In this document: positions 559 to 37,943 of the stretch, piece after piece
How the letters are laid out: every line of letters starts with the position of its first letter
Numbering within the stretch: the stretch's first letter is position 1
Virus record (IMG/VR): IMGVR_UViG_3300031766_002389
Coordinates: 1-41,559 of that record
Source of the DNA: a virus
Strand: one strand, 5' to 3'
Length of the DNA: 41,559 nt
Notes under the pieces: generated by a model
The model's input: only the letters and a program-made list of their open reading frames with translations
What the model was told of the DNA's origin: nothing
The model's database searches: none
Position numbers and translations under genes: made by a program

Positions 559-2162
559 ATATCCAAAACATCACGGGAACGGGCTGCGTAACTTCCCTTC
601 GTTTAGGAGACACTATCTATTTAAACTCCAGCCACAGTGTTAGCAGCAACGGCAGCAATCTTTTATCAGGGATTGAATCCACTGAATGTGGGAGCAATTT
701 GGTTTTAAAAAGCCTAGAAGGCAAGCCAGGCTCCTGCATTGGCGTTCAAGATGGTCCTGGAAATATCTTGTATTTGACTGGGGGTTGCGGAGGCTCCAGT
801 TCTTATCAGCAAATCACTGGAGAAGCTTGTGTTAGCACCTATGAAGAAGGAGGGGTGCTTTATGTTTCGGGACACTGTTCTACAGGGAACCTTAGCGATG
901 TCGAAAATATCACAGGAACAGGGTGCGCCAGTACCTATAAAATAGGAGATACGCTTTATATCTCGGGACAGTGTTCCACAGGAAACCTTAGTGATGTCCA
1001 AAATATCACAGGAACGGGCTGCGTAACCTCCCTTCGTTTAGGAGACACTATCTACTTAAACTCCAGCCACAGCGTTAGCAGCAACGGCAGCAACCTTTTA
1101 TCAGGGATTGAGTCTACTGAATGCGGGAGCAATTTGGTTTTAAAAACCCTAGAAGGCAAGCCAGGCTCCTGCATTGGCGTTCAAGATGGCCCTGGAAATA
1201 TTTTGTATTTGACTGGGGGTTGCGGAGGCTCCAGTTCTTATCAGCAAATCACTGGAGAAGCTTGTGTTAGCACCTACGAAGAAGGAGGGGTGCTTTATGT
1301 TTCAGGACACTGTTCTACAGGAAACCTTAGCGATGTCGAAAACATTACAGGAACAGGATGTATTAGTACCCACAAGATCGGAGATACGCTTTATGTTTCT
1401 GGAGAGAAGGGCATTACGGGCGCTACGTCTGCAAATTTAGACAATCTTGCAAACGTTTATTCTGGCATTGTATTTGGTGACTGTGGGGACGAATTAGTAT
1501 TTAGGCAATTAAGCGGACTAAATTGTATAAATGTTACTGATTTCGATGACCATATAGAGGTATATGCTGATATTAGCTGGACAGCCAATCACGGCGAGTC
1601 TAATTTATGGATTGGTGAACATGGCATAACAACTCCTGGAGGTGATATCGCACGAACAAATAACCCAGAAAACGCTTGTGATTTTGTTTGGAATCTTAAA
1701 AGCATTACTGGGGTCGGTTGCATATCTTCGTATATAGAGGATAATACAATAGCTATTTCTGGCCAAGATTGTTTTCCTGCAGGAGGTAACTCTTGTGACG
1801 TTTTGGTCGGCCCTTCTGATGACGCTTCATGGAAGAGTGCGGAAGATTTGATTTTAGACTGCATGGGGCTTTCCTGGAAACAAGTGACAATGTGTGAAGA
1901 CGATGGTTCTACTGCTTGTTATGAAATATTAGCCCGTCAAGTTTCATGTACGACAACCAGCACTCCCACAAGCACAACCAGCACTCCCACAAGCACAACA
2001 AGCACTCCTACAAGTACAACAAGCGCCCCTACAAGTACAACAAGCGCCCCCACAAGCACAACAAGCGCCCCTACAAGCACAACAAGCGCTCCCACAAGCA
2101 CAACAAGCGCTCCTACAAGCACAACAAGCGCTCCTACAAGCACAACAACAACGCTTCCATAA
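1..2162 (+). CDS. Large repeat-containing virion-type protein (5' end outside window)
   Basis: The reading frame is open from the left edge (first full codon at base 3), so the N-terminus is missing; the visible part is about 719 residues. Six 31-residue repeats (core TGTGCATTYKEDIDGQ) come first. A 145-residue module containing NLSD, NITGTGC and GDTLY follows, present twice. A unique region of about 170 residues is next, and the protein ends in about nine heptads of the TSTTSAP type, finishing TTTTLP. Regular Cys in TGTGC and SGDC suggest a disulphide-rich or beta-repeat fibre. Such repeats are usual in phage fibres and adhesins, but I recognise no named family. ATG codons near 336 are internal, because the same repeat frame extends upstream of them. 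Fibre or adhesin function is inferred from repeats and neighbours. Confidence 0.8.
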   Translation, partial: GTGCATTYKEDIDGQEYIVVSGHCATGVYVTGTGCATTYKEDIDGQEYIVVSGDCTTDVYVTGTGCSTTYKEDIDGQEYIVVSGHCATGVYVTGTGCATTYKEDIGGQEYIVVSGDCTTDVYVTGTGCATTYKEDIDGQKYIVVSGDCTTDVYVTGTGCATTYKEDIDGQEYIVVSGDCTTGNLSDIQNITGTGCVTSLRLGDTIYLNSSHSVSSNGSNLLSGIESTECGSNLVLKSLEGKPGSCIGVQDGPGNILYLTGGCGGSSSYQQITGEACVSTYEEGGVLYVSGHCSTGNLSDVENITGTGCASTYKIGDTLYISGQCSTGNLSDVQNITGTGCVTSLRLGDTIYLNSSHSVSSNGSNLLSGIESTECGSNLVLKTLEGKPGSCIGVQDGPGNILYLTGGCGGSSSYQQITGEACVSTYEEGGVLYVSGHCSTGNLSDVENITGTGCISTHKIGDTLYVSGEKGITGATSANLDNLANVYSGIVFGDCGDELVFRQLSGLNCINVTDFDDHIEVYADISWTANHGESNLWIGEHGITTPGGDIARTNNPENACDFVWNLKSITGVGCISSYIEDNTIAISGQDCFPAGGNSCDVLVGPSDDASWKSAEDLILDCMGLSWKQVTMCEDDGSTACYEILARQVSCTTTSTPTSTTSTPTSTTSTPTSTTSAPTSTTSAPTSTTSAPTSTTSAPTSTTSAPTSTTSAPTSTTTTLP
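546..1415 (+). repeat. 435-bp tandem duplication inside the repeat protein
   Basis: The segment starting ggtaaccttagcgat at 546 recurs at 981 as ggaaaccttagtgat, a period of 435 bp or 145 codons. The two copies are nearly identical at DNA level, differing mostly at synonymous or scattered single positions, and diverge near 1400. High DNA identity points to recent duplication or ongoing gene conversion. Confidence 0.88.
1955..2155 (+). repeat. 21-bp coding repeats (TSTTSTP / TSTTSAP)
   Basis: About nine copies of a 21-bp unit such as acaagcacaacaagcgctcc form the C-terminal tail of the first protein. Codon-level variation is limited to synonymous third positions and one Thr-to-Ala change shared by the last six copies. 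Confidence 0.88.
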
Positions 2163-2171
2163 TAACAGGCA

Positions 2172-2894
2172 ATGGCTTTTATTCTTCAAATAGTCAATGC
2201 CGATGGAGAGTGTTGTCAGGCTTGCGATGGCCGAGTTAGCCCTTGCGACCCATGCGTTACTACAACTTTCGCTCCAGCAAGCACTACTCCTCAAGGCACT
2301 ACTACTTTTTCCCCAACGAGCACCACCGCTCAAGCAACGAGTACTACCGCTCAAGCAACGAGTACTACCGCTCAAGCAACGAGTACCACCGCTCAAGCAA
2401 CGAGCACCACCGCTCAAGCAACGAGCACCACCGCTCAAGCAACGAGCACTACCGCTCAAGCAACGAGCACTACCTCCACACCAACAACTACCACTCAGCT
2501 TTATCTGTGGCAGGGAGAGTATGAAGCCTGCACGACTACCGCTCAAGCAACGAGTACTACCGCTCAAGCAACGAGTACTACCGCTCAAGCAACGAGCACC
2601 ACCGCTCAAGCAACGAGCACTACTGCCCAAGCAACGAGTACTACCGCCCAAGCAACGAGTACTACCGCCCAAGCAACGAGTACTACCTCGACACCAACAA
2701 CTACCACTCAGCTTTATCTGTGGAAGGGAGAGTATGAAGTTTGCACCACTCCGTCGGCACAGGCATTTATTTCAACAACAACTACTTCATCACCATACCC
2801 CCCACCAGACCCCAGCCTTGGAGGAGATATCGGGGAAGCTGGTAAAGCTCTTGATGACTGGGAATATCCTACCGCCACGACTCCGTCTCCTTAG
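2172..2894 (+). CDS. Thr/Ala/Gln-rich repeat protein with mucin-like heptads
   Basis: This 240-residue protein begins 10 nt after the upstream stop codon. The N-terminal 30 residues hold three CxxC-type pairs (CCQACDG, CDPC). Two blocks of about seven TSTTAQA heptads follow, each ending in a duplicated module containing QLYLW and GEYE followed by Cys; the modules recur 213 bp apart. The tail is Pro/Ser-rich and ends TATTPSP. Thr and Ser exceed half of the repeat blocks, as in mucin-type linkers. It sits with other virion-type genes whose C-termini look alike, so a fibre accessory or O-glycan acceptor role is inferred. Another frame is also open across the repeats, only because the repeat unit lacks stops there. 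Confidence 0.75.
   Translation: MAFILQIVNADGECCQACDGRVSPCDPCVTTTFAPASTTPQGTTTFSPTSTTAQATSTTAQATSTTAQATSTTAQATSTTAQATSTTAQATSTTAQATSTTSTPTTTTQLYLWQGEYEACTTTAQATSTTAQATSTTAQATSTTAQATSTTAQATSTTAQATSTTAQATSTTSTPTTTTQLYLWKGEYEVCTTPSAQAFISTTTTSSPYPPPDPSLGGDIGEAGKALDDWEYPTATTPSP
2325..2690 (+). repeat. 21-bp coding repeats (TSTTAQA), two blocks
   Basis: Two blocks of about seven units like accgctcaagcaacgagtac are separated by the tctgtggcagggagagtatg module, which recurs at the end of the second block, giving a 213-bp higher-order duplication. Confidence 0.88.
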
Positions 2895-3799: not shown

Positions 3800-5005
3800 A
3801 TGTTTTTTTATTTGCTAGTATTAATTTGCGCACTTAGCATTTCTGGCACTGGCGCATACTTCAGCATACTTGGGCTTGCGACTATGTTCCCTGGGGCGGC
3901 CACTTCAGTTGTCGCAATGGGGGTCGTGTTAGAAGTCGGGAAAATTGTAGCAGCAATCTGGCTACATTTAAACTGGAAGGTCGCAAACAAGCTTGTCAAA
4001 TACTACTTAACCGCTGCGGTTATTGTTTTAATGTTTATAACGAGCATGGGTATATTTGGTTTTTTGTCCAAAGCCCATATAGAGCATGATTTTCTTACTA
4101 GCAAAGAGTCGGCTTCTGTATCAATGATTGAAGAAAAAATACTTAGAGAAGAGCAGTTTATTAAGCGCCAAGAAAGTTACATACAAGACGAGGAAAAGCG
4201 CTTAGTTTCGTCCAAAGATATAAACCTAGTAGATATTGAAAGGGAAGAAAAAAGAATTGAACAACTCAATACCCAGCTAAGCAGTAATATAGCGTTTGAG
4301 CAAGAAAGGCTTAACCAATTATCTAATCGCCGAAAAGAGTTGGATGATGCTGTTGCAGCTATAGAGGCTCAATCTGGAGGCCTTTTCTCCGCCAAGAAAG
4401 ACAAGCTTAAAAAGCTACACGAAGTTCAGTTGCCAGAAAGAGAGGGTTTGAACAAAAGCATTACTGATATCGAAGCCCAAATCAAACTTCACCGCCAAAA
4501 ATCTGACGACCAAATTAAAGAATCTCTTACCAAAATTGCGTCCTTTCAACAAAACAGGGGCGATGGTCACGAAGATGCAAAAGATGAAATAGAAAAATAC
4601 AATACTGAAATAAACTCCGCAGTAGAACGTATTAGCTCGTTGGAGGTAGAAAAATTATCTTACGACGAAAAGGTTAGAATGTTAGAGGCGGAAGTTGGCC
4701 CAGTTAAGTACATAGCAAAGCTTTTTGAGGACCTTGGTTCAAGCGCTGTTCCTCTGGATAAGGCCGTAAGAATGGTGATTATTGTTTTAATTTTTGTATT
4801 TGACCCTCTAGCAGTACTCCTTGTTTTAGCTGGAGTTTCTAGCATACATTCGTTATCCAATAAAAAAGAAGTCCTCACCGCCCCCGTTAAATCTACTCCT
4901 GTTGCTGCCGATCAAAAAACAGAGAAAAGACTTAATAATATAGAGAAAAAAATGAAAGCTGTTGCGGCGATGGCAGTCTCTAGACAAGGTAAAAAAAAAA
5001 GTTAA
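3800..5005 (+). CDS. Membrane-anchored coiled-coil protein
   Basis: This 401-residue protein has three hydrophobic segments near the N-terminus (about residues 2-25, 33-57 and 70-91), a long charged coiled coil (about 100-300, rich in Glu, Lys, Gln and Leu), and one more hydrophobic segment (about 322-348, VRMVIIVLIFVFDPLAVLLV). The C-terminal tail is Lys-rich. The layout suggests a host-membrane protein with both anchors in the inner membrane and a long coiled coil between them. Similar coil-plus-TM proteins occur in marine phages without known function. Tape-measure, spanin-like or membrane-remodelling roles are possible; none can be shown from sequence. Confidence 0.72.
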   Translation: MFFYLLVLICALSISGTGAYFSILGLATMFPGAATSVVAMGVVLEVGKIVAAIWLHLNWKVANKLVKYYLTAAVIVLMFITSMGIFGFLSKAHIEHDFLTSKESASVSMIEEKILREEQFIKRQESYIQDEEKRLVSSKDINLVDIEREEKRIEQLNTQLSSNIAFEQERLNQLSNRRKELDDAVAAIEAQSGGLFSAKKDKLKKLHEVQLPEREGLNKSITDIEAQIKLHRQKSDDQIKESLTKIASFQQNRGDGHEDAKDEIEKYNTEINSAVERISSLEVEKLSYDEKVRMLEAEVGPVKYIAKLFEDLGSSAVPLDKAVRMVIIVLIFVFDPLAVLLVLAGVSSIHSLSNKKEVLTAPVKSTPVAADQKTEKRLNNIEKKMKAVAAMAVSRQGKKKS

Positions 5006-5240: not shown

Positions 5241-5676
5241 GGGGGCGCACTGGATTCGACTGATATTGGATTTTTGCGTCGCAAGCAGGAGTGGGCTGGC
5301 TCCTTAAAAAGCCCAAGGCTTATATAAGTGCCAAATCTAAACTTGTAAATGGTCTGCTTGACCGCTTCAACCCTTCTAAGAGGGTTGCAACCCGTAAGGT
5401 TGTTGCTCGCAAGAGCGTTGCTCGTCAGCTGACTGCCGTAGCATAAGCTACCCCTTGCACCTAGGACGCAGATAATAGAATGCGAGGCCGACATCTGCAA
5501 AAGCAGAAATAGTTTACTTGTACCACAAACTGTAGCTCACTGAGTATTCGGAGACAAATAAATGAAACAAGAAGTTGGATGTTGATATCTAAACTATAAA
5601 AAATATCAACTAAGCTTGTAGAAGCGTAAATTTGAAGATGATCAACACGCGGGTTCGACTCCCGCCGCCTCCACCA
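5241..5676 (+). ncRNA. ssrA: Transfer-messenger RNA (tmRNA) with a 38-codon tag frame
   Basis: The ends form a tRNA-like domain. The 5' GGGGGCG pairs with CGCCTCC before A-CCA, giving a 7-bp acceptor stem with one G-U; CCA is encoded. TGGATTCGAC near the 5' end and the T-arm GGGTTCGACTCCC near the 3' end are tmRNA hallmarks. Pseudoknot PK1 is visible: GGAG 5288-5291 with CTCC 5300-5303, and GGGCT 5293-5297 with AGCCC 5310-5314. The likely resume codon GCC starts at RNA position 90 (5330), the same offset as in E. coli. The frame runs 38 codons (start AKSKLVNG, end RQLTAVA) to TAA at 5444-5446, inside a GTAGC/GCTAC hairpin loop. The 436-nt length is long for a tmRNA because of the tag insert, which itself contains hairpins (AACCCT/AGGGTT, and GCTC-GCAA-GAGC). 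It tags stalled peptides and frees ribosomes. Confidence 0.93.
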
Positions 5677-6046: not shown

Positions 6047-8080
6047 ATGATAGTCAATGGATACGATATCGATATTCCTGCAGCAATTACTGGGGCTGGA
6101 GGGATCCCCCCGATAACAGCTAATGTTTCTGGTCAATGCGTCTCTTTGAGCTTGGCGGGTGCGGGGACCGAGGCTTCCCCTACTAATATTAGCTGGAATG
6201 ATTCTGCTGGAAATCTGTTTTACGGAGTAGATTTATGGACTGGGCCCCAGGTCGACGGACAAGACGCAAAAATCAACTCTCGAGTAGTCGATGGCGACAT
6301 CGTTCAGCATGTATGGGACCCAAACATCAGTTATACTAGCGCTGTAGTAACTGAACTCAATAATTCTGCAGAACAGCTTTCTAAGTTCGGGTATCCAGAC
6401 TTCAGTAATATGGCCTCATCAGATCTCGCCTGCGAAGGAGGGGTCTATTTACAGGTTAAGTATAGCAGTTTAGGAACTTGCTACTCAAATGGACGTTTAG
6501 ATGAAGCTGTGTTATGGTTAAAATGTCACATTCCTTATTCTAATTTATCCGAGTCAGATGAACCAGCATCTTGGTCAACTTGGCATGATTGGATTATTGA
6601 TAGGGCTGCTGTAATTAAGTTGGCCCCGACCATGGCGAGTTGTCACTGGTGGAAGACTGGAGATTATGCTATCAGAGCGGCTCATAGGAATGAGGGTTAT
6701 GGTTCAGAATGCTATAAAGCTCAGTGGCTTGAATATGATGAGGAACCAGAAGTTCTCAAGGCAGATGCAAGACATAATTCTAGCGGCACCATATGTTGTG
6801 ATACAGGGATTGGGCTTCCTCTTGATTTGCGAATAGGTTATGTTCCTAATCCCGCTTCAGAAGAAAACATAGGATGTATTTCTATGAGTACGGGAGATTG
6901 GTTGATGCACGACTCTTTGTATGGGGGTGGCGAGTCTGCAGAATATCTACAAGAAATCGCCGAGACTAGCTACAAATGCTGCTTAAGGTTTGAGAGTGCC
7001 CAACAAATCAGTCAACATGATTATACATACAGTCGTTATAGATTAGAAGATCTTATATCCACGGTTCATGTTGAGCGTTTTGCGGGGGATGTAGATTATA
7101 CTATATCCAAAAAGGAGAGGTTATCAGAAATGAATTATGGCATATCTGGACAAAGCGAACCATGCGGCCCACTTCATTGGTTTGGGTACAAACCTCATAT
7201 TATTTATGATGCCGCCGATGGCGCTTGTGCCGAATGTATTGATTCGTTACCTCCCTGTGTATATGCTGCCGAAGATTGCTCCCCCTCTACTACTCCATCT
7301 CCACCTACTACCACATCAGGGCCCGTCACTACTACCGCATCCCCGCCAACGACCCCAGCCCCAGCAACCACCACATCAGGACCCGTCACTACTACCGCAT
7401 CCCCGCCAGTAACCACCACATCAGGGCCCGTCACCACAACTAGCTCAGCAACCTCTACAACCAGTAGTACTCCTTGCCCAGAAGAGTCATGCTATCCATG
7501 TTTAGAATTAGTTTTTGATAGCCCTTCTATATATGAGACCGAGTATACTGGAGTTTATAGTTCCGAGTCTGGAGAAGCTGTTATGTATAACTATTGGAGA
7601 AGCCCAACTAAAGACGAGATATGGGCTAAGGTTGACGATACTGGCAAATTCTTTGCTTCTAATTTTTACGTACCCGACGGGGATAGTAATCCATGTGGTT
7701 ATGAATTCTGGAGGCTTTTTGATTTAAGCCAGCACCCAACTGCTCCGCGCGCTAGCAAATATGTTGCTCAGTGTTCTGAAACCCAAAGGGGCTATTGTCC
7801 TGACGATGTTATTTGGTCTTTAAGCGGGTCTTCTTTTGACTTGGATTTTGTAAGTTGTTCTACCCCTACAACAACCAGTTCCACCCCTACAACAACTAGT
7901 TCTACCCCTACAACAACCAGTTCCACCCCTACAACAACTAGTTCTACCCCTACAACAACTAGTTCTACCCCTACGACAACTAGTGCTGCCCCTACGACAA
8001 CTAGTGCTGCCCCTACGACAACTAGTGCTGCCCCTACGACAACTAGTGCTGCCCCTACGACAACTAGTGCTGCCCCTTAA
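6047..8080 (+). CDS. Large Cys-containing virion-type protein with Thr/Pro linkers
   Basis: A 677-residue protein starting 2 nt after the previous stop. Residues 1-410 form a Trp/Tyr/Cys-rich, probably beta-structured region (for example YLQVKYSSLGTCYSNG and SCHWWKTGDYAIRAAHRNEG). Residues about 415-475 are a Thr/Pro linker (repeated TTTSGPVTTT). Residues about 480-600 form a second Cys-containing domain (CPEESCYPCLELVFDS ... CPDDVIWSLSGS). The C-terminus is about twelve heptads, PTTTSST then PTTTSAA, ending AAP. Two globular parts joined and tailed by Thr/Pro repeats suggest a fibre or surface decoration protein. The Thr-rich parts are candidate O-glycan acceptors. No homologous family is recognised. 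Confidence 0.7.
   Translation: MIVNGYDIDIPAAITGAGGIPPITANVSGQCVSLSLAGAGTEASPTNISWNDSAGNLFYGVDLWTGPQVDGQDAKINSRVVDGDIVQHVWDPNISYTSAVVTELNNSAEQLSKFGYPDFSNMASSDLACEGGVYLQVKYSSLGTCYSNGRLDEAVLWLKCHIPYSNLSESDEPASWSTWHDWIIDRAAVIKLAPTMASCHWWKTGDYAIRAAHRNEGYGSECYKAQWLEYDEEPEVLKADARHNSSGTICCDTGIGLPLDLRIGYVPNPASEENIGCISMSTGDWLMHDSLYGGGESAEYLQEIAETSYKCCLRFESAQQISQHDYTYSRYRLEDLISTVHVERFAGDVDYTISKKERLSEMNYGISGQSEPCGPLHWFGYKPHIIYDAADGACAECIDSLPPCVYAAEDCSPSTTPSPPTTTSGPVTTTASPPTTPAPATTTSGPVTTTASPPVTTTSGPVTTTSSATSTTSSTPCPEESCYPCLELVFDSPSIYETEYTGVYSSESGEAVMYNYWRSPTKDEIWAKVDDTGKFFASNFYVPDGDSNPCGYEFWRLFDLSQHPTAPRASKYVAQCSETQRGYCPDDVIWSLSGSSFDLDFVSCSTPTTTSSTPTTTSSTPTTTSSTPTTTSSTPTTTSSTPTTTSAAPTTTSAAPTTTSAAPTTTSAAPTTTSAAP
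7858..8077 (+). repeat. 21-bp coding repeats (PTTTSST / PTTTSAA)
   Basis: About six copies of a unit like cctacaacaactagttctac are followed by about five of cctacgacaactagtgctgc, with no interruption. Each copy encodes seven residues. The 21-bp period also occurs at 1955-2155 and 2325-2690 in two other genes, with different residues. Confidence 0.88.
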
Positions 8081-8104: not shown

Positions 8105-9445
8105 GTGAGTAAGTTCTTCAAAGGTATTGGGCCAAACCCTTGTGTTATAACTGTGGGTGGCATATGCTATACGCAGATTCAGCCCTCCACTCAGTTCGCA
8201 AGCATGAGTGAATACAATCTTTCTACCGCTGACCCTAATTGGTCTAGCGGAGAATCTTGTGATTGCATCTGTGATTTACCTACCACAACTACATCTTCAG
8301 CGTTTAGCACTGATCCTCCCGAGAGCACCGATCCTCCCGAGAGCACTGCCATGCCTACTAGCACTACAGCTGCCCCCACCACCAGCACTACAATGGACCC
8401 ATTTGCTGGGGACCCCAGCGCCACTACTACTACATCTGCTCCAGGAGGCACCACCACTACATCTGCTCCAGGAGGCACCACCACTACATCTGCTCCAGGA
8501 GGCACTACCACCACTACTGTTGACCCCTGTGATTGCAGCGGAGAGAAGGCGTATACATCCCATGCAAGCGAGGGATGTGTAAATGCGGCCACGCCTTGGG
8601 CTGATGCCAATCCTAAATTTTATATAGACAAGATGTATAGTTATGAGGACAGCTTTGGGGTCTGGAGGGTTTTTCGCCGTACTGGCTGCGGCACTTTCTT
8701 AGGGGAAGATACTGGAGGTCGTTATTGCATTCAAGCCGACCTCCCCCCAACCTCAAATGGGCTAAACACAAACGCTTACTGGGAGCACTGCGGTACATTT
8801 GTCCCCACAACCGCTCCCCCCACAACTACCGCAGCCCCCACTACCACTCCAAATCCATGCTCCGAATTAAACACTTTACCCTTGTGGTCGGCTGGGACTT
8901 ATGCCAAATTTGATAAAGTCAAGCATTGTATCGACGGGACCTATCATGCTTGCACGGCTGACTGGGAATTTGAGATAGGTGACGCCCTCAAATTTACTAC
9001 AGATGAAGAGCCCTCTGCGTCGTCTTCGGATTGGGAGATAGTTAATTGCGAGACTGCTTGCACAACCGCTCCCCCGACAACTACCGCAGGCCCCACTACC
9101 ACTCCAGGCCCGTGTGCTGAATGTGAAAATCAGGGAGCGCCATGGTCGAAATGCGCGCAGTGTAGTTCGATTGGCGGTGGCGCCATTGGTCCTTATTATT
9201 GGTCTAACGACATGTGGTATCAGCCTGGAGATTGTATAGTTTATGGCAGTTATCTATATGTGTGTTTAATTGATCACTTAACAACATTCTCAGTCGGCAG
9301 CGTACCGCCTGGAATACCTACGCCATACCCATCCGATACAGATATTCCATTTACTACCGCTCCTTATAATGGGCAGGTATTTTGGTCTCTATGTAGCCCA
9401 TTTGCTGGACAAGGAGTAGAAATAACAACTACTACAGCACCTTAA
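8105..9445 (+). CDS. Virion-type protein with three Trp/Cys modules on Thr/Pro linkers
   Basis: A 446-residue protein starting at GTG 8105. After an N-terminal Cys-containing head (about residues 1-55), a Thr/Pro/Gly linker carries SAPGGTTTT repeats. Three modules follow, each closing with a W....C pattern: about 140-235 (ending YWEHCG), 255-320 (LPLWSAGTYAKFDKVKHCID ... DWEIVNC) and 345-440 (YWSNDMWYQPGDCIVYGSYL ... FWSLC). They are separated by TTAPPTTTAAPTTTPNP-type linkers, and the protein ends ITTTTAP. W..GtY..gD.v..g..Y.C......W..C is the spacing seen in CBM5/12-like carbohydrate-binding modules. I infer a multivalent glycan-binding adhesin; homology to CBM families is not proven. Confidence 0.7.
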   Translation: MSKFFKGIGPNPCVITVGGICYTQIQPSTQFASMSEYNLSTADPNWSSGESCDCICDLPTTTTSSAFSTDPPESTDPPESTAMPTSTTAAPTTSTTMDPFAGDPSATTTTSAPGGTTTTSAPGGTTTTSAPGGTTTTTVDPCDCSGEKAYTSHASEGCVNAATPWADANPKFYIDKMYSYEDSFGVWRVFRRTGCGTFLGEDTGGRYCIQADLPPTSNGLNTNAYWEHCGTFVPTTAPPTTTAAPTTTPNPCSELNTLPLWSAGTYAKFDKVKHCIDGTYHACTADWEFEIGDALKFTTDEEPSASSSDWEIVNCETACTTAPPTTTAGPTTTPGPCAECENQGAPWSKCAQCSSIGGGAIGPYYWSNDMWYQPGDCIVYGSYLYVCLIDHLTTFSVGSVPPGIPTPYPSDTDIPFTTAPYNGQVFWSLCSPFAGQGVEITTTTAP

Positions 9446-9821: not shown

Positions 9822-10517
9822 ATGCCCGAAAGAAAAAAGATCCAAGAAGAGATTGATCAAATTGTCGCAGAGACTAAGAAGCTAGAAGCAGAAACTAGAA
9901 AAATCACGGCAGACGCCCTGGCTGCAGAATACTACGCTGGCTTAAGAAAATTAGATCTTGAGAAAAAAGAACAGGACCAAAGAAGGAGGGCTGCGTCAGA
10001 TAATGAGCACATGCTTTATAGATTTAATACCGTAGTAGACAAGAGCCATGTTTATGAATGCATGTACAAACTAACACAATGGTCACGAAGACATCCTAAT
10101 TGTAATATTGAAATAGTTTTTTCTTCAGGAGGTGGAAGCATTGTTGATGGCTTTATTCTTTTTGATTTTATCCAAGAGCTGCGGGCGCGCGGGCACAAAG
10201 TCACCACGGGTTCTTTAGGGATGGCTGCGTCAATGGCTGGCGTACTTCTTCAGGCGGGAGACGATCGATGGATGGGGCATCAGGCCTGGATGATGATTCA
10301 TCGCGCGGCTTTTGGAGCTATTGGAAAAACATTTGAAATTGAAGATGAAGTGGCATGGATCAAAAGAATCGAAGATAGAATCCTTGACATCTTTGAGAAA
10401 AGGTCAGACCTTACTAGAACAAAAATCAAGAGAAATTGGGACAGGAAGGACTGGTGGATTTCTTCGGACGAAGCCTTAAGCTTAGGTCTTATTGATGAAA
10501 TTAAAGGGGAGCTATGA
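9822..10517 (+). CDS. ClpP-like serine protease with N-terminal coiled coil
   Basis: A 231-residue protein of the ClpP/crotonase-like protease fold. Ser137 in GMAASMAG corresponds to the ClpP nucleophile, and His160 in WMMIHRA to the catalytic His. SSGGGSIVDG (101-110) forms the oxyanion region and DEALSLGLIDEI (216-227) the typical ClpP C-terminal motif. The third residue is uncertain: the ClpP Asp position falls in KIKRNWDRKDWW, where Asn205 aligns most directly and Asp207 or Asp210 could substitute. Residues 1-60 are a charged helix or coiled coil absent from bacterial ClpP. It could be a Clp peptidase working with the phage Clp ATPase at 37944, or a head-maturation protease of the ClpP type, which phages also use. 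A TAATAT-like -10 lies just before the start without a good -35. Confidence 0.85.
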   Translation: MPERKKIQEEIDQIVAETKKLEAETRKITADALAAEYYAGLRKLDLEKKEQDQRRRAASDNEHMLYRFNTVVDKSHVYECMYKLTQWSRRHPNCNIEIVFSSGGGSIVDGFILFDFIQELRARGHKVTTGSLGMAASMAGVLLQAGDDRWMGHQAWMMIHRAAFGAIGKTFEIEDEVAWIKRIEDRILDIFEKRSDLTRTKIKRNWDRKDWWISSDEALSLGLIDEIKGEL

Positions 10518-10985: not shown

Positions 10986-12002
10986 ATGAGTAAAGAAAAA
11001 ACAGGAAATTTAATTAGTCAGGATATTGCTGGAGTCAACCGAATACTCCCTCATAAACATAAATTCGCATGGGACCTGTTTCTGAAAGGGTGCGCGAATA
11101 ATTGGATGCCTACAGAAATTTCAATGCAGGAAGATATCAACCAGTGGAAAAACGGAACAATTTCTGATGATGAAAAGCTTTTAGTTAAAAGATGTTTAGG
11201 TTTTTTTGCTGGAAGCGAATCATTGGTTGGAAATAATTTATTGCTTTCTGCTTTTAAATACGTAACAGATCCAGAATGTCGCCAATATATTTTGCGCCAA
11301 GCTTTTGAAGAGAGCTTGCACAACCTTACTGTAGTTTATATTTGCGATAGCCTCAGTCTAGATATAGATGAAGTTTTCCGTGCGTATGAAACCATCCCAT
11401 CAATCAAAGCAAAAGATGATTTCTTGATGGAAATCACTACTGACCTTACTCGTAATGATTTTTCTACAGATAACGAGGGCGGGAAGAAAGAGTTCTTAAA
11501 GAATCTTTTTACTTATTATGTAGTGTGCGAAGGTACGTTTTTCTTCTCTGGCTTTGCAATGCTACTTGCATTAGGTAGACAAAATAAGCTTCAAGGAATT
11601 TCAGACCAAATTAAATATACTCTTAGGGATGAGAGTATTCATATTAAGTTTGGGATTTATTTAATTAACACCATTACCGAACAAAATCCTGAGATTTGGA
11701 CGGAAGAAATACAGCAAGAATTTGTCGAGCACATGAAAAAGACTGTTGAGCTGGAAATTTCATATGCAAAAGATGTTCTTCCTACAGGTATTCTAGGTTT
11801 GAATGCAGATATGTTTGTAGATTACATGCATTATATTGGAAACAGAAGGCTAGAATCTATCGGCTTGGACTATAGATTTCCATCTGATACAAATCCATTT
11901 CCATGGCTAAGTGAAGTTGTTGACACCCAAGCAATGACTAATTTTTTTGAGCGCAGGGTTAGAGAGTACCAACAAAGCGGTTCATTGGAAGACGATTTTT
12001 AA
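10986..12002 (+). CDS. nrdB: Ribonucleotide reductase small subunit, class Ic-like (no radical Tyr)
   Basis: A 338-residue R2 protein that makes the radical needed by the NrdA subunit to reduce ribonucleotides; nrdA is not in the window. All six metal ligands are visible: Glu78 (GSESLV), Glu109 and His112 (FEESLH), Glu182 (CEGTFF), Glu216 and His219 (RDESIH). The first ligand is Glu rather than Asp, and the position of the radical Tyr (four after His112) is Val116. Ligand spacings equal those I recall for the Chlamydia class Ic R2 protein, whose Tyr is replaced by Phe and which uses a Mn/Fe cofactor. A manganese-dependent, tyrosyl-radical-free enzyme is therefore likely. The C-terminus (LEDDF) is the usual NrdA-docking tail. 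The ATG at 10986 is preferred to the upstream TTG because of the promoter geometry. Confidence 0.94.
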   Translation: MSKEKTGNLISQDIAGVNRILPHKHKFAWDLFLKGCANNWMPTEISMQEDINQWKNGTISDDEKLLVKRCLGFFAGSESLVGNNLLLSAFKYVTDPECRQYILRQAFEESLHNLTVVYICDSLSLDIDEVFRAYETIPSIKAKDDFLMEITTDLTRNDFSTDNEGGKKEFLKNLFTYYVVCEGTFFFSGFAMLLALGRQNKLQGISDQIKYTLRDESIHIKFGIYLINTITEQNPEIWTEEIQQEFVEHMKKTVELEISYAKDVLPTGILGLNADMFVDYMHYIGNRRLESIGLDYRFPSDTNPFPWLSEVVDTQAMTNFFERRVREYQQSGSLEDDF

Positions 12003-12006
12003 AATA

Positions 12007-13095
12007 ATGAAAAAAATTATAGTAACAGGGATAACAGGTCAAGACGGCAGCCACATGGTTGACTATCTCCTTGAAAACACAAGCCACGAAATCTACGGAA
12101 CAATTCGTCGTCTCAGCGTAAAGAACCACGAAAACATATTGCACCTCAAGAACAATCCCAGGGTTCATATTATCGACATGGATTTAAATGACGCCCATAG
12201 TATTAGAGATGTAATTATTAGCGTTCAACCCGATTATTTTATTAATTTTGCGGCGCAAAGCTTCGTTGCGGGGAGTTGGAAATACCCGACACAGACGTTC
12301 GATACCGACGCTAACGCAGTTTTGCATATATTAGAATCAATTAGGAGGTTTGCTCCCAAGTGTAGGTTTTATAATGCTGGAAGCAGTGAAGAGTTTGGGG
12401 ATGTCGCTTATTCTCCTCAAGACGAGAAGCATCCTTTAAGGCCTCAGTCTCCTTATGCGGCTGCGAAGTGTGGGGCAAGACATTTAGTTAGGGTTTATAG
12501 AGAAAGTTATGGCCTTTTCGCTATTCAAGGTTGGCTATTTAACCACGAAGGGACAAGGAGAGGCTTAGATTTCGTAACCAGAAAAATCTCTCATGGCGTT
12601 GCTCAAATAAAATTATGTATTGAGAATTCCTTTCGCAGGCCTTCTGCCGCGCGCCACCCTTTTCCCGTTTTAGAATTGGGCAATTTAGATGCCTTAAGGG
12701 ATTGGAGTGATGCAGAAGATTTTATGTCGGGAGTATGGGCGATGCTTAATGCAGTCAAGCCCAAGAATTATGTTCTTGCGAGTGGCGAAATGCATTCGGT
12801 TAGAGAGTTTGTAGAGAGATGCCTTTTTGTTGCACAAATAGAATTCATAAGGGAGGGTTCAGGCCAGGACGAGAAGTATTATGCTCTAAGCATTAACGGC
12901 GAGGAAGTTCCGCGACCTTTAATAGTCGGAATAAATCCAGAGTTTTATAGACCAGCAGAAGTTCATAAACTTTTGGGAGATCCATCTCTGGCAGAAAAAG
13001 AACTGGGCTGGAGAAGGTCTTCCAACTTCAACCAATTGGTCAAAAAGATGTATGACAATGATTACATGTTACTGAATAAACAAATAGTACCTTAA
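12007..13095 (+). CDS. gmd: GDP-mannose 4,6-dehydratase
   Basis: A 362-residue short-chain dehydrogenase/reductase of the extended GMD family, converting GDP-mannose to GDP-4-keto-6-deoxymannose, precursor of GDP-fucose, GDP-rhamnose or GDP-perosamine. The N-terminal NADP site reads GITGQDGSH. RRLSVKN, AAQSFVAGSW, GSSEEFGD (Thr/Ser-Glu catalytic area), YAAAK (catalytic Tyr and Lys) and FNHEGTRRG are characteristic; most GMDs have NHESPRRG at the last. Length is normal. The ATG at 12007 lies 4 nt after the nrdB stop; the longer frame upstream overlaps nrdB and lacks the Rossmann start. First gene of the glycan block; no obvious GDP-fucose synthase is in the window. Confidence 0.94.
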   Translation: MKKIIVTGITGQDGSHMVDYLLENTSHEIYGTIRRLSVKNHENILHLKNNPRVHIIDMDLNDAHSIRDVIISVQPDYFINFAAQSFVAGSWKYPTQTFDTDANAVLHILESIRRFAPKCRFYNAGSSEEFGDVAYSPQDEKHPLRPQSPYAAAKCGARHLVRVYRESYGLFAIQGWLFNHEGTRRGLDFVTRKISHGVAQIKLCIENSFRRPSAARHPFPVLELGNLDALRDWSDAEDFMSGVWAMLNAVKPKNYVLASGEMHSVREFVERCLFVAQIEFIREGSGQDEKYYALSINGEEVPRPLIVGINPEFYRPAEVHKLLGDPSLAEKELGWRRSSNFNQLVKKMYDNDYMLLNKQIVP

Positions 13096-13105
13096 CCTAT
13101 TTGCT

Positions 13106-13110
13106 GTGTA
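13106..13110 (+). promoter_or_regulatory. GTGTA start-proximal motif before epimerase
   Basis: ctGTGTA is followed by 9 nt and the ATG at 13120. This is the same geometry as before virion-type genes, placed in front of most of the glycan block. Confidence 0.45.
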
Positions 13111-13119
13111 TAAAAATAC

Positions 13120-14031
13120 ATGGCAAAGAAAAAATTTTTAGTTACTGGCGGTGCAGGCTTCATTGGAAGCCATGCGGTTGATACATTATTAGATATGGGC
13201 CACGATGTAGTTGTGGTTGATAATGAGTGCGCGGCGGAGAATGACAATTTCTTTTGGAGGGATGAGGCCGAGAATCACAAAGTCAATATTATCGACTACG
13301 ACCGCCTTGAGCCTCTCATGGAAGGGGTTGATTATGTTTTGCATTTTGCGGCGGAGTCTCGCATTCAACCTTCTATTATTGACCCTAGATATGCGATAGA
13401 GGTTAATGTAGTTGGTACGGCAAATGTTTTACAGGCTGCTAGAGAAATGGGAGTAAAAAGAGTTATGTATTCTTCTACTTCGGCGGCGTATGGTTTAAAA
13501 AATGAGCCTCCCCTAAAAGAGACAATGCCCACGGACTGCCTCAATCCTTATTCGGTCGGCAAAGTTGGAGGCGAAGAGGTATGCAGGATGTATACAAAGC
13601 TTTTTGGTTTAGAGACTGTTTGCTTTAGATATTTTAATGTCTACGGAGATCGCAGCCCTACCAAAGGCCAATATGCTCCAGTAGTTGGTTATTTTTTTAA
13701 ACAAAAGAAAGCTGGCAAGCCAATGACTATTGTTGGGGATGGCGAGCAAAGGAGAGATTATACCCATGTTTCTGATATAGTAAATGCGAATATTCTTGCT
13801 GCGCTTAGCGAAGATAAGTCTGTAGTAGGAGAACTTTTTAACGTAGGAACTGGAACAAATCACTCTATTAATGAACTCGTAAAAATTATAGGTGGAGATT
13901 CAGTTAATATACCTGCCCGCGAAGGAGAAGCTCGCATAACTCTTGCAGACAATAGCAAGCTAAGAGAAATGTTATCTTGGGAGCCTAAGATTAAATTTGA
14001 AGATTGGATAAATCAAAATAAACCCAGATGA
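13120..14031 (+). CDS. NAD-dependent nucleotide-sugar epimerase/dehydratase
   Basis: A 303-residue extended SDR protein. The NAD-binding motif is GGAGFIGSH near the N-terminus. HFAAESRIQPSI, SSTSAAYG and PYSVGK (Tyr and Lys of the YxxxK pair) form the active site; FRYFNVYGDR and GDGEQRRDYTHVSDIV are typical of UDP-hexose 4-epimerase-type enzymes acting on UDP-Glc/Gal or GlcNAc/GalNAc. Substrate cannot be assigned from sequence. UDP-galactose production would feed the UDP-galactopyranose mutase at 26594. The stop overlaps the next ATG (ATGA), so it is co-translated with the dehydrogenase. Confidence 0.9.
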   Translation: MAKKKFLVTGGAGFIGSHAVDTLLDMGHDVVVVDNECAAENDNFFWRDEAENHKVNIIDYDRLEPLMEGVDYVLHFAAESRIQPSIIDPRYAIEVNVVGTANVLQAAREMGVKRVMYSSTSAAYGLKNEPPLKETMPTDCLNPYSVGKVGGEEVCRMYTKLFGLETVCFRYFNVYGDRSPTKGQYAPVVGYFFKQKKAGKPMTIVGDGEQRRDYTHVSDIVNANILAALSEDKSVVGELFNVGTGTNHSINELVKIIGGDSVNIPAREGEARITLADNSKLREMLSWEPKIKFEDWINQNKPR

Positions 14032-14876
14032 GTATTGGCGTAATCGGTCTCGGCTTTGTGGGTTCGGCGGTCGAAAATGGCTTCCAAGGATATTTCACAA
14101 GATCTTTTGATAAAAAGCCAGAGCTTTCAAAGCATAGCTTAGAAGAAGTGCTGAAGCAAGATTTTGTATTCATATGCGTCCCCACCCCTATGAAATCGGC
14201 AGAAGTAGGCAAGTGCGATTTATCTATTATCGAAAACTGCATTGACGAAATAAACGAAATTGGATCACATTCTATTTTTATTATTAAGTCCACAGTACCC
14301 ATTGGCTTTACATTGAGAGTACAAAAGGAATATCCTCGTTTAAAATTTGTACATTCCCCTGAGTTCTTAACTGCAATTAATGCGCAAAATGATTTTGAAA
14401 ACCCCGACAGAAATGTAGTAGGCCATACGGGATCTCTTGCCACGGCCGAGAAGGTTGTTTCTCTTTACAGATCACGCTTCCCTTCTGCACCGTGCTTTTT
14501 AATGTCAAGCGATGAGTCTGAGATGACAAAATACATTGCTAATTGTTTTTTAGCCACAAAAGTTAGTTTTTTTAATGAGATGTATGATTTAGTTTGCAAA
14601 ATGGGGGGCTCCTGGGAATCGGTTTCGGCCGCGATTATTTCAGACGCTCGAATTGGCAAATCCCACTTTAAGGTTCCTGGTCCAGACGGAAGTAGAGGTT
14701 TTGGCGGAACTTGCTTTCCTAAAGATATCAATTCTTTGATATATCAAATGCACGACTTATCATTACCTACAGATATGTTAATGTCTGCTTGGACTACAAA
14801 TTTAAGAGTTAGAGAAGATCATGATTGGCTTTCTGAACCTTCAGCCGTATCAAATAGAGATGAATCTAAAAGTTAG
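14028..14876 (+). CDS. UDP-glucose/GDP-mannose dehydrogenase family protein, short form
   Basis: A 282-residue NAD-dependent dehydrogenase related to UDP-glucose 6-dehydrogenase, which oxidises C6 of a nucleotide sugar to the uronic acid. The Rossmann motif GVIGLGFVGSAV is at residues 4-15. VPTP (51-54), KSTVPIGF (87-94), SPEFL with a conserved Glu (110-114) and the catalytic Cys229 in GFGGTCFPKD are present. Family members usually have 390-450 residues; the C-terminal nucleotide-sugar-binding domain is missing, with only a short linker after the active site. It may work as a compact variant or hetero-oligomer. The start overlaps the epimerase stop. Confidence 0.87.
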   Translation: MSIGVIGLGFVGSAVENGFQGYFTRSFDKKPELSKHSLEEVLKQDFVFICVPTPMKSAEVGKCDLSIIENCIDEINEIGSHSIFIIKSTVPIGFTLRVQKEYPRLKFVHSPEFLTAINAQNDFENPDRNVVGHTGSLATAEKVVSLYRSRFPSAPCFLMSSDESEMTKYIANCFLATKVSFFNEMYDLVCKMGGSWESVSAAIISDARIGKSHFKVPGPDGSRGFGGTCFPKDINSLIYQMHDLSLPTDMLMSAWTTNLRVREDHDWLSEPSAVSNRDESKS

Positions 14877-15210
14877 AAATGGTAATTTCTTTAAGACCCA
14901 CGCCAATCAATACAAGGATTGGATAATTGGACCATTTGTAGGTGACCCAGATTTCAACTCGGAGCATTTTGAATTTAAATTTCAAAAAGGCAAAAAGGGT
15001 GAGGCTCGACCACCTAAATCCGCACCCGACCCTAACACTAAGACTCTTCCAATTCTAATATATGGAGAAATCCGCATAGCATTTCATAACGGCACGGACA
15101 ATGTGTATCTAAGAGAAGAGGGTGATTACGTTTTATTTGAACCTAATGAGCCTCATGAGTTTGAGTTTTTAGAAGATACATTAATTATAACATTGAGGTG
15201 GAAAGAATGA
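14860..15210 (+). CDS. Small cupin-like protein
   Basis: A 116-residue protein. The ATG at 14860 overlaps the dehydrogenase by 17 nt; an alternative start is 14821. GEIRIAFHNG, YLREEGDYVLFEPNEPHEFE and LIITLRW give the repeated beta-strand pattern with a late Glu-Pro-His-Glu that fits a cupin (RmlC-like) barrel. Such proteins act as sugar epimerases or isomerases or simply bind ligands. The centre contains a basic, Pro-rich insert (KKGEARPPKSAPDP). The stop overlaps the next start (ATGA). Cupin assignment is from motif appearance only; a sugar-modifying role is suggested by the operon. Confidence 0.65.
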   Translation: MNLKVRNGNFFKTHANQYKDWIIGPFVGDPDFNSEHFEFKFQKGKKGEARPPKSAPDPNTKTLPILIYGEIRIAFHNGTDNVYLREEGDYVLFEPNEPHEFEFLEDTLIITLRWKE

Positions 15211-15758
15211 TTAATCATAAACATAAATTTATTTTTATACACATACCAAAGTGTGGAGGACTTAGTATCGAGTCAGTATTTAATTGGAAGAGCTCCAGGC
15301 ATGACACCATGGAACTTTATAAAAAATGCAACCCCCACATAGATCTAAACAATTATTACAAATATACATTTGTCAGAAACCCTTGGGACCGTATGGTGTC
15401 CTGGTATTATTACCATTGGAATGGTAAGGATTATAGAGGTGCAACGTTTAAGGATTGGTGTAAAAATGGTTTTTTAACGCACTGGAAAGGTGCTGGTTGG
15501 AAAAACAAAGATCCCCTTGATTGCCAAGCATGGATAGTTGATAAAAAAGAATATGATTTCATAGGCAAGACTGAAAACCTACAAGAAGGCTTCAACACTG
15601 TCTGCGACAAAATTGGAATTCCCCGACAAGAACTTCCTCACAAAAACAAATCAAAGCACAGGCATTATAGCGAATACTACGACGATGAAACCCGCAACAT
15701 TGTGGCAAAAAAGTACGCAAAAGACATTAAAAGCTTTGGGTATAGATTTGGAGAATAA
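15207..15758 (+). CDS. Sulfotransferase-like protein (Sulfotransfer_2 type), copy 1
   Basis: A 183-residue protein starting MINHKHKFIFIHIPKCGG. IPKCGG is the 5'-phosphosulfate loop and FVRNPWDRMVSWYY the 3'-phosphate-binding motif of PAPS-dependent sulfotransferases. FIGKTENLQEGF and YYDDETRNIVAKKYAKDI are the usual C-terminal motifs of carbohydrate sulfotransferases that act on glycans. Transfer of sulfate from PAPS to a sugar hydroxyl is the likely reaction; PAPS must come from the host. An SD-like aggtggaaag precedes the ATG at 15207, which overlaps the cupin stop. It is closely similar at its first 60 bases to the next gene, suggesting tandem duplication. Confidence 0.88.
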   Translation: MINHKHKFIFIHIPKCGGLSIESVFNWKSSRHDTMELYKKCNPHIDLNNYYKYTFVRNPWDRMVSWYYYHWNGKDYRGATFKDWCKNGFLTHWKGAGWKNKDPLDCQAWIVDKKEYDFIGKTENLQEGFNTVCDKIGIPRQELPHKNKSKHRHYSEYYDDETRNIVAKKYAKDIKSFGYRFGE

Positions 15759-15769
15759 AAACCTCGTCT

Positions 15770-16408
15770 ATGACTAATCACAAGCATAAATTTATTTTTA
15801 TACATATACCCAAAACGGGCGGCCACAGTGTTGATAAGTTTTTTTTGGAGAGGTCCATGGTGGATGACACTAAGTGGCATTGCACCTCTAATCAAATAAT
15901 GAAGTTTGTTGGAGATGAAACTTGGAACTCTTATTTTAGTTTTACCATAGTCAGGAATCCTTGGGACAGAATGGTTTCTGAATATAGCTGGCAGAAAGGG
16001 TCGGCGGTTACTCAAATTGCTACTCCATGGGGAAATGACCAAGTTTCTTTTAAAGATTTTTTAAAAATGGTTCAATTATCCCCAAGAAACCATCATGACA
16101 TGAATCAAATTAGAGCTTTTGATACGTGGTATAGAATGCAAGAGATTAAAGACGGCCATTTAAATACTCAACTTTCATTCATTATTAATGACGATGGAGA
16201 AAAAATTATTGATCATATAATTAAATTTGATGCTCTAAATGTGGAGTTCACTAAAACATTAAAAAAGCTTGGACTTAAGGAAGAAAGTCTACCGCATCTT
16301 AATAAATCTGATAGAGGTTCTTATGATCAGTATTATGATCAAGAATGCATAGATATAGTAGCAGACAGGTTTAAGGATGACATTGATTATTTTAAATATG
16401 ATTTCTAA
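15770..16408 (+). CDS. Sulfotransferase-like protein, copy 2
   Basis: A 212-residue paralogue of the previous protein. MTNHKHKFIFIHIPKTGGHS holds the phosphosulfate loop (IPKTGG), and FTIVRNPWDRMVSEYSW holds the 3'-phosphate motif. IIKFDALNVEFTKTLKKLG and YYDQECIDIVADRFKDDI match the C-terminal motifs of glycan sulfotransferases. The central part is longer than in copy 1 and diverged, so acceptor specificity probably differs. The start is 11 nt after copy 1; the stop shares its last base with the next start (TAATG). All expected PAPS-binding motifs are present. Confidence 0.88.
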   Translation: MTNHKHKFIFIHIPKTGGHSVDKFFLERSMVDDTKWHCTSNQIMKFVGDETWNSYFSFTIVRNPWDRMVSEYSWQKGSAVTQIATPWGNDQVSFKDFLKMVQLSPRNHHDMNQIRAFDTWYRMQEIKDGHLNTQLSFIINDDGEKIIDHIIKFDALNVEFTKTLKKLGLKEESLPHLNKSDRGSYDQYYDQECIDIVADRFKDDIDYFKYDF

Positions 16409-17415
16409 TGCTTAAAACTCCTTCCCTCCCAGTCCACATAAGAGACTTTGTTGAAGAGTTTTTTCTTTGTGATGACCAAATACAAAGCTATCTTAAAGAT
16501 AATGACATAATCGTAACTTCTTTAAGGGTCAACAAAGAACCTGCTTGCATAAGTCGAGTTATTGGTAGGGATAATGGAAAATATAAATTGCTAAAGCCTA
16601 CCATTTTAATAGGTTTTGAGCCTTATATTGTAGGATCTCATTTAGATGCAGAAAGAAACGGTTTCTCTATAGAGTCTGCGAGAGGTAGTACGGGAGGCAT
16701 TCCTTTGGGTTTTGGGTTTGATTGCATAAATGGCATTTCTAATAGGAATTTATTTTTAGATAGAAATTTTTTAATTACTACTTGTGATGTCCAGAAAGAA
16801 TGTCATCACGTTCCCTTCGCATCAATGCACCCACGGCTCTTAGGGGAGGGGAAAACAAAAAGAATTCACTGCAATAACAATCGTCCTTTTTCCGTGGGTT
16901 ATATGAATAGAACTAAATGTCCCCGCAGAGAATCAATGTTTGATTGTTTAGTAGAAAAAATAGGAGAAAACAAATGCCACGCCTTGGGCGAGAGGCACGG
17001 AAGCTACCCTTCTACATTGAAACCTTCTTCAAACCTAAGATCTGGAAATGATTGTTGGTATAATAATGAGCTTTACAAAACATATTCTCAATATGATTTT
17101 GTTTTAGCTATGGAAAACACAATTAGCAAGGGTTATGTAACTGAAAAAATATTAAATGCATTTCTGGCGGGCGCAATACCAATTTACTATGGCGATTCTT
17201 TGACCAAAGAAATCTTTAACCCTGACTCCTTTATAGACATTACAGACTTCAATTCAATCGAGGATTGCGCAGAATACATTTCGCTTTTAAGCAATCAAGA
17301 AATAGAAAAAATGAGATCTCTGAATTTTTTCAAAACCCCCTTAAATGATTTTTTCAACAAAGACTCCCAAGTGTATTCTTTAATCAGAAAAGATATATTA
17401 AAAATGACATCATGA
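16408..17415 (+). CDS. GT10-type alpha-1,3/4-fucosyltransferase-like protein
   Basis: A 335-residue protein. The region around residues 230-270 reads YDFVLAMENTISKGYVTEKI, then LNAFLAGAIPIYYGD. This is the GT10 signature (FxxxxEN, GYVTEK, A..xGxxPvyxG) that binds GDP-fucose. The end of the protein (FNPDSFIDITDF) is also typical. GT10 enzymes transfer fucose from GDP-fucose to GlcNAc or glucose in glycans. GMD upstream could start GDP-fucose synthesis. The N-terminal 150 residues are less conserved and presumably bind acceptor. Coupled to neighbours at both ends (TAATG and ATGA overlaps). Confidence 0.87.
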   Translation: MLKTPSLPVHIRDFVEEFFLCDDQIQSYLKDNDIIVTSLRVNKEPACISRVIGRDNGKYKLLKPTILIGFEPYIVGSHLDAERNGFSIESARGSTGGIPLGFGFDCINGISNRNLFLDRNFLITTCDVQKECHHVPFASMHPRLLGEGKTKRIHCNNNRPFSVGYMNRTKCPRRESMFDCLVEKIGENKCHALGERHGSYPSTLKPSSNLRSGNDCWYNNELYKTYSQYDFVLAMENTISKGYVTEKILNAFLAGAIPIYYGDSLTKEIFNPDSFIDITDFNSIEDCAEYISLLSNQEIEKMRSLNFFKTPLNDFFNKDSQVYSLIRKDILKMTS

Positions 17416-18254
17416 ATAAAATTAAATTTTTTGTAGTTTATCATAAATCCATTCACGAAGAGGTTTATGATAGTGAGTCTCTAGAAAATATCAAATTCTT
17501 TGGGGTAAATGAAAATATTGAAAAATCCCCAATAACAATTTCTAAAGATGTTATCCAAGAAAAAGACCTACCTATTTACGAACCTCGATTTCAGGAGAGA
17601 GGTTACAGCGAAACTTCTGCAGCGTGGCATATATACAAAAACGAGATCTATAAAGATTTAGATTATATTGGCTTTGGGCAATACGATCAAGTCATAAAGA
17701 GAGATGTATTTGATGAGTTTAATAAAAGATTATCTACCAATAAAAATCCTTGTATTTTTTATTTTAATAAAAAAGATTTAACCACAGACCCTGAATTCAA
17801 TAAGGTCCCCTACGATTATGTTGTAGATCATTATAATGACTTTTTTGGCACTTCTTTCTCTATGGGCGAACTTAAGAAAAACGCCAAAACTAAAGACTCT
17901 TTAATTTTATTTGCTACCTTTATTATACATAAAGATCTATTTGAAAAATTAATGTCATGGATTGAGGTTTTAGTAGACGATATATATCCTTGGGCCAACC
18001 TTCCTCCTTGGCCTACTCACCACCCCCACCTAGGAGGTGTTCTAGAAAGGACTTACGGTTTATTTTTTGCTATGGAGCTGCTATCTAACCCGTCAACAGA
18101 TATTCAACAACTCCCAATACAACATCCTAAAAAATACAAAATCCAAAAACATAGAGGTAGAAGCGTTGCTCTTTCAGACGCTATGGAAGAGCACGACCTA
18201 GGAGATACAGAAATATATAAGTTAAATAATATTTTAAAAAATAATCAAAAATGA
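17412..18254 (+). CDS. Probable glycosyltransferase, DUF4422-like
   Basis: A 280-residue protein. It begins IKFFVVYHKSIHEEVY and has YSETSAAWHIYKN and DYIGFGQYDQVI. The order 'E.sa.wh.yKN......D.iGf.qYd' resembles DUF4422 glycosyltransferases, in which the D.IGf.hYrR element lies in a GT-A fold. PWPTHHPHLGGVLERTYGLF late in the protein is also typical of that family (the 'H...g..lER.....f' part). Sugar donor and acceptor are unknown. ATGA overlap with the fucosyltransferase gene. No membrane segment. Confidence 0.68.
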   Translation: MNKIKFFVVYHKSIHEEVYDSESLENIKFFGVNENIEKSPITISKDVIQEKDLPIYEPRFQERGYSETSAAWHIYKNEIYKDLDYIGFGQYDQVIKRDVFDEFNKRLSTNKNPCIFYFNKKDLTTDPEFNKVPYDYVVDHYNDFFGTSFSMGELKKNAKTKDSLILFATFIIHKDLFEKLMSWIEVLVDDIYPWANLPPWPTHHPHLGGVLERTYGLFFAMELLSNPSTDIQQLPIQHPKKYKIQKHRGRSVALSDAMEEHDLGDTEIYKLNNILKNNQK

Positions 18255-18288
18255 TTTGCCATAAAAATATCAAGTACACCTTTCACGA

Positions 18289-19056: not shown

Positions 19057-19071
19057 AAAATTTGATTATAT

Positions 19072-22284: not shown

Positions 22285-22292
22285 TTGTACCA

Positions 22293-22907: not shown

Positions 22908-22910
22908 AAG

Positions 22911-23660: not shown

Positions 23661-23705
23661 TTTTTCACGAGCCGACTTAAATGGCATTCAATTCGAATTT
23701 TAAAC

Positions 23706-24728: not shown

Positions 24729-24755
24729 CCTTTGTTTGTGTATCTATTTTTGGAT

Positions 24756-37929: not shown

Positions 37930-37943
37930 ACCTTATATTGAGA

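Follow-up and report, generated by a model that had tools for sequence, protein, structure and literature searches.

The virus represented by IMG/VR record IMGVR_UViG_3300031766_002389, a virus of bacteria, encodes a one-piece tmRNA with a basic tag of 38 codons whose peptide, judged from substitution patterns among relatives, is under selection, and tmRNA genes also accompany the viral ClpC proteins nearest to the one this phage carries. We put at about even the chances that the phage tmRNA is loaded by host SmpB and that its long tag steers the products of rescue to a Clp protease, probably via the phage ClpC. The stretch of DNA that was analysed, here called the window, is 41,559 nucleotides long; contig G001 (71,609 bases) is a second assembly of the same virus and adds 32.5 kb. 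The tmRNA gene has the following parts.

5241-5676, plus strand: one-piece tmRNA gene (ssrA), 436 nt (RF00023, 109.9 bits, full model)
5241-5247, plus strand: 5' strand of the acceptor stem, GGGGGCG, pairing with 5666-5672 (7/7 pairs, G3-U70)
5287-5314, plus strand: PK1 pseudoknot, AGGAG 5287-5291 with CTCCT 5300-5304 and GGGCT 5293-5297 with AGCCC 5310-5314 (read from the sequence)
5330-5332, plus strand: resume codon GCC, RNA nt 90 (covariance-model alignment)
5330-5446, plus strand: tag reading frame, 38 codons and TAA, stop at 5444 (frame translation, conservation)
5405-5416, plus strand: hairpin GCTC-GCAA-GAGC within the tag (4/4 pairs in all three basic-tag RNAs, A-U for G-C in L342)
5438-5451, plus strand: stop-codon hairpin GTAGC-ATAA-GCTAC (invariant in three relatives)
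5666-5676, plus strand: 3' strand of the acceptor stem and ACCA end (covariance model, pairing comparison)

The covariance-model search matched the whole of RF00023 (model positions 1-374, E 3.2e-42, cut-off 47) and confirmed the tmRNA, with a canonical tRNA-like domain, PK1 and resume position, as a sequence-only reading of this DNA had proposed. A resume codon placed elsewhere in the RNA would have spoken against that reading; the alignment keeps GCC at 5330. The tRNA-like domain is of the alanine type, with a seven-pair acceptor stem containing G3-U70, a normal T arm and, in the window, a CCA end. Among the basic-tag RNAs the acceptor and T stems vary by compensatory changes, which in relative L219 keep 7/7 acceptor pairs, while the PK1 columns are unchanged across the three basic-tag relatives and U85 and A86, upstream of the resume codon, are invariant in all three RNAs. 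The stop codon had been placed in a hairpin loop of its own, a normal tmRNA feature (helix 5), and indeed this hairpin is conserved without change. With G3-U70 in the tRNA-like domain, PK1, a resume codon at about nt 90 and a stop in a hairpin, the RNA thus shares its plan with the bacterial one-piece tmRNA. When each of the three basic-tag RNAs is folded to minimum energy, the resume codon lies in an 11-nt hairpin loop closed by seven pairs (TATAAGT/ACTTGTA, 5323-5347); the resume-codon region of a tmRNA is normally single-stranded, and a hairpin there would be unusual if real. At position 5674 assembly G001 has A for C, so that its tmRNA would end in ACA; the relatives have CCA. ARAGORN reported no tmRNA on the window. 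Since the program misreads, misplaces or misses the tag or the tmRNA in several long-tag relatives, its silence here is uninformative, and surveys based on it probably record too few viral tmRNAs with long tags.

The tag peptide encoded in the window, AKSKLVNGLLDRFNPSKRVATRKVVARKSVARQLTAVA, has 38 residues with 10 Lys/Arg, one Asp and a net charge of +9, in agreement with the composition first read from the sequence. The other two frames from the resume region close after 2-5 codons. An open frame of this length arises in 10% of dinucleotide shuffles, and the frame alone is therefore weak evidence; the argument for the peptide comes from relatives. Relative L219 (contig IMGVR_UViG_3300046532_005078) encodes the tag AKSKLVNGLLDRFNPSKKVATRKVVARKSVARQLAAVA, and L342 and L343 (contigs IMGVR_UViG_3300025889_000496 and 3300006802_000177) encode AKSKLINGLLDRFNPAKKVASRKVVTRKSVAHQVAAVA. 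Both divergent viral relatives retain all 38 codons with zero indels, and the frame-disrupting changes that would have spoken against a long tag were found in neither. Between the window and L342 the tag differs by 23 substitutions, falling 6/2/15 on the three codon positions, and 15 of them are synonymous; a second comparison among the basic-tag viruses gave 1/1/6. Eight amino acids are changed between the window and L342, against 13.8 expected (P 0.0018), and when the same substitutions are placed at random, 48% of trials produce a stop. The 117-base tag is free of indels, whereas alignments of the RNA's 3' part contain 10-34 gap columns (24 for the window and L342). Conservation of the 38 codons, lack of indels and preponderance of third-position substitutions together argue that the tag frame is real and its peptide selected.

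The window tag ends in L-T-A-V-A, the basic tags as a group in LTAVA, LAAVA or VAAVA, and -AVA is small and hydrophobic like the -LAA, -VAA and -LAV of family tags. Two further hairpins had been noted in the tag region. The pairs of GCTC-GCAA-GAGC all persist, one of them through a compensatory change, but AACCCT/AGGGTT is a pair short in both relatives and is thus not a conserved element.

How unusual is a tag of this length? The most frequent length among bacterial tmRNAs is 10 (PMC11915505), compared with the 38 basic codons on this phage. Phage tmRNAs are already known (PMC4131195, PMC7162821), although a 2025 tmRNA database holds just 79 phage sequences (PMC11915505). Bacillus phage G and the mycobacteriophages Bxz1 and Wildcat encode a tmRNA, as do Streptomyces phages such as Lululemon, in which the annotated tags have 11-13 residues, not 38, and the methylophage Melnitz, in which the tmRNA has the two-piece form (PMC9004378) and not the one-piece form found here. 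In the open-access papers searched, we saw neither long, family-specific tags of viral tmRNAs described nor the occurrence of a tmRNA with a viral ClpC. The closest precedent for length is the extended SsrA tag of Mesoplasma florum and the mycoplasmas, a long tag tied to a particular protease, Lon (PMC9382460, PMC3439342). That tag is bacterial, ends in NYAFA and is paired with Lon, whereas ours is viral, ends in LTAVA and has Clp as its proposed partner; with endings of LTAVA, LAAVA or VAAVA, the basic tags are not of the mycoplasma type.

Long tags also turned up elsewhere among viruses. Using the phage's ClpP-like protein as query, we found 75 viral contigs, 74 of which were searched for tmRNA. 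Nineteen carry a full tmRNA: one is the basic-tag L219 and 18 have a long tag of another kind. These 18, together with further contigs found by tag pattern, make up the acidic-tag set (tmRNAs L202-L218, L232, L256, L257, L261, L271, L276, L280, L284, L286 and L289), whose tags comprise 22 distinct peptides, 30-35 residues long, with net charges of -3 to -10 and a core such as VDMAPSLAEADAILAKFGW. Again, variation falls mainly on the third codon position (295/305/729). Comparison of these tags indicates that long tags are common in the phage assemblage and that the basic one forms a version of its own. The 38 codons singled out at first as exceptional are thus real, but less isolated than claimed, given relatives with 30-35 codons and the mycoplasma-group precedent; the distinguishing points are the basic sequence and the accompanying Clp genes, rather than length.

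The basic sequence is unlike every short tag found in this analysis. In the ClpC-bearing L344 the 3' part is 73% identical to that of the window tmRNA (shuffled maximum 45%) and the tag has 20 residues, GNKSRIKAYSPKSEELALAA; by this alignment the RNA body is conserved while the tag differs. L141 (contig IMGVR_UViG_3300035698_016797) has the long tag RKETTFTGLRPVARKSVLAFAIAA, with an apparent Arg resume codon and the motif VARKSV in common with the window tag, and L193 has the long tag GEDNIAGLLDEAAAIMNNADAVLAGAEVAEVVA, with a ClpP family protein on the same contig. Three viral pattern matches, L357-L359, were rejected as not being tmRNAs. No tag similar to that of the window was found in 50,697 phage records (GenBank phages), and its DNA had no match in plasmids. 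Among 84,980 bacterial and archaeal species, exact degenerate patterns gave no match for the acidic type and a single match, not tmRNA-like, for the basic type. Mimicry of a host tag is therefore unsupported, within the reach of exact patterns.

The sequence-only reading had suggested that such a tag may recruit a different protease. The phage carries two candidate partners.

37938-40388, plus strand: ClpC-type AAA+ unfoldase, 816 aa; docking-type loop MGF, residue 682 (match to S. aureus ClpC, 570 bits; phrog_4871)
9822-10517, plus strand: ClpP-like serine peptidase, 231 aa, triad S137 H160 D210 (PF00574, 92 bits)

The phage ClpC shares with bacterial ClpC an N domain, two AAA+ modules, a short middle domain and the ClpP-docking-type loop, and its Walker motifs and pore loop are intact. 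Its nearest relatives are viral (57-62%), and the docking-type loop is kept as [MLVIF]GF in nearly all full-length viral relatives. ClpP, ClpA and ClpX have been reported on jumbo phages (PMC7824862). As an approach blind to tmRNA, we collected 51 contigs by ClpC alone and then searched 23 of them for tmRNA. All six contigs with the nearest ClpC, from three lineages, have one, compared with 0/17 contigs with a more distant ClpC (tmRNA over cut-off); in phage genomes generally the frequency is 2.3% (PMC9004378). One of the three is a large-phage lineage (G116, G117 and G128; contig up to 282 kb), whose tmRNAs (L346, L347 and L345, respectively) carry the 21-residue tag GETIAKLSAVGLIRSEEVVTA. 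Here SmpB and the tmRNA are about half a kilobase apart, and ClpP is present on two of the three contigs, G116 and G128. On G128, SmpB is at 43156-43569 (plus strand), the tmRNA at 44026-44412 (minus), ClpC at about 50.6-52.4 kb and ClpP at 1700-2224 (minus). By gene content this lineage has a complete viral set for trans-translation and degradation: SmpB, tmRNA, ClpC and ClpP.

The set is smaller elsewhere. SmpB was not found in the known 74 kb of the window virus, which would thus need host SmpB. On G114 and G118, fragments that carry a basic tag and ClpC, no ClpP was seen, nor was ClpC detected in the acidic-tag relatives, whose contigs are likewise fragments, so that absence of a gene is weak evidence throughout. 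Taken at face value, it suggests that the acidic-tag phages use a host unfoldase or none, and the notion that long tags depend on a viral ClpC was rejected on these grounds. The third basic-tag virus is represented by contigs of 28 kb and 10 kb, too small for a meaningful ClpC check, and the apparent contrast between basic tags with ClpC and acidic tags without it rests on very few lineages. A control on short tags pointed both ways: ClpP was present in 0/10 short-tag contigs and 0/3 Streptomyces phages, but Bacillus phage G has one.

Lastly, large open frames on both sides of the tmRNA contain tandem repeats (1-544, 541-1394, 1953-2148, 2314-2687, 7857-8077 and 8422-8511), possibly encoding repetitive virion fibre proteins. 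With the neighbouring proteins at 3800-5005 and 6047-8080 as queries, matches were obtained in the same virus only. Further along, 11947-27583 holds an extended series of genes of the nucleotide-sugar, glycosyltransferase, sulfotransferase-like and UDP-galactopyranose mutase types.

We propose the following course of events. The phage would make its own one-piece tmRNA, which would be charged by the host alanyl-tRNA synthetase and work with host SmpB and EF-Tu. It would enter ribosomes stalled during infection, and translation would resume at GCC 5330, adding Ala and the 38-residue basic, probably helical tag before the ribosome is freed at TAA 5444. The extended tag would then serve as an unfoldase address, with the C-terminal L-T-A-V-A engaging the pore and the long basic stretch making further contacts with a Clp unfoldase, most likely the phage ClpC, which would hand the chain to a ClpP, either the host's or the phage's. 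Support for delivery to Clp comes from the presence of tmRNA with the nearest ClpCs and not with the distant ones, and the idea of an extended tag matched to a particular protease has its precedent in mf-SsrA and Lon (PMC9382460). The suggestion of a different protease has accordingly gained ground from the phage's ClpC, its ClpP-like peptidase and the company that tmRNA keeps with the nearest ClpCs; charging, tagging, recognition of the tag by the phage ClpC and degradation are the steps that we infer.

A plausible alternative would be that the tag is an ordinary degron for host ClpXP, ClpAP/ClpCP or Lon, that the phage tmRNA merely boosts rescue and amino-acid recycling, and that the phage ClpC and ClpP-like protein act in capsid maturation or host takeover. 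A recycling role has been proposed for another phage tmRNA (PMC9004378), and the acidic-tag relatives have long tags yet no detectable ClpC. The ClpP-like protein may, by similarity, instead be a head-maturation protease: its best PHROG is head maturation protease, and although it has the peptidase triad in common with bacterial ClpP (invariant in 61 viral homologues except for one gap), its N-terminal region differs, and the protein is close to phage maturation proteases. However, where its gene has annotated neighbours in relatives, these are not capsid genes but PhoH, nucleotide-sugar and sulfotransferase genes, and an ordinary host degron fits poorly with a basic sequence unlike any short tag found and with tmRNA accompanying the nearest ClpCs. 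On balance we regard this alternative as possible but unlikely.

Less probable still, and in our view quite unlikely, is that the tag is not mainly a degron, and that its net charge of +9, from 10 Lys/Arg in 38 residues, lets tagged chains attach to nucleic acid, to membranes or to a different partner and so meet some other fate. The tag is indeed predicted to be helical, with a pLDDT of only 72, but its helical moment is not above that of shuffles (P 0.16), giving no significant sign of an amphipathic helix, and searches of Pfam and PDB turned up nothing similar to the peptide. Its small hydrophobic C-terminus is conserved, moreover, and Clp genes are present in the same virus. A structural RNA expansion in the tag region, with the frame merely incidental to it, is very improbable, for although two tag-region hairpins are conserved, AACCCT/AGGGTT is not, and the codon-position bias, the indel-free 117 bases beside a gapped 3' part and the deficit of amino-acid changes all point to a peptide. 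Equally hard to credit is a decaying or passenger tmRNA without function, which the ACA end in G001 and the missing SmpB might suggest, since the anatomy is complete, the acceptor and T stems change in compensation, the tag frame and stop are conserved and the relatives encode an intact CCA.

Delivery of rescued products to a Clp protease by the long tag hence remains our preferred reading. Going one step further, the basic tag and the phage ClpC could have co-evolved as a private pair and form a degradation channel that the virus owns, largely apart from the host ssrA-ClpXP route, and that during infection sorts what stalled ribosomes release to a viral protease, a possibility that we raise only tentatively. 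If tag and viral ClpC do cooperate, they could provide a laboratory tag-protease pair independent of host proteases; the virus would own a tag-and-destroy pathway, and the question of why phages carry tmRNA would become testable.
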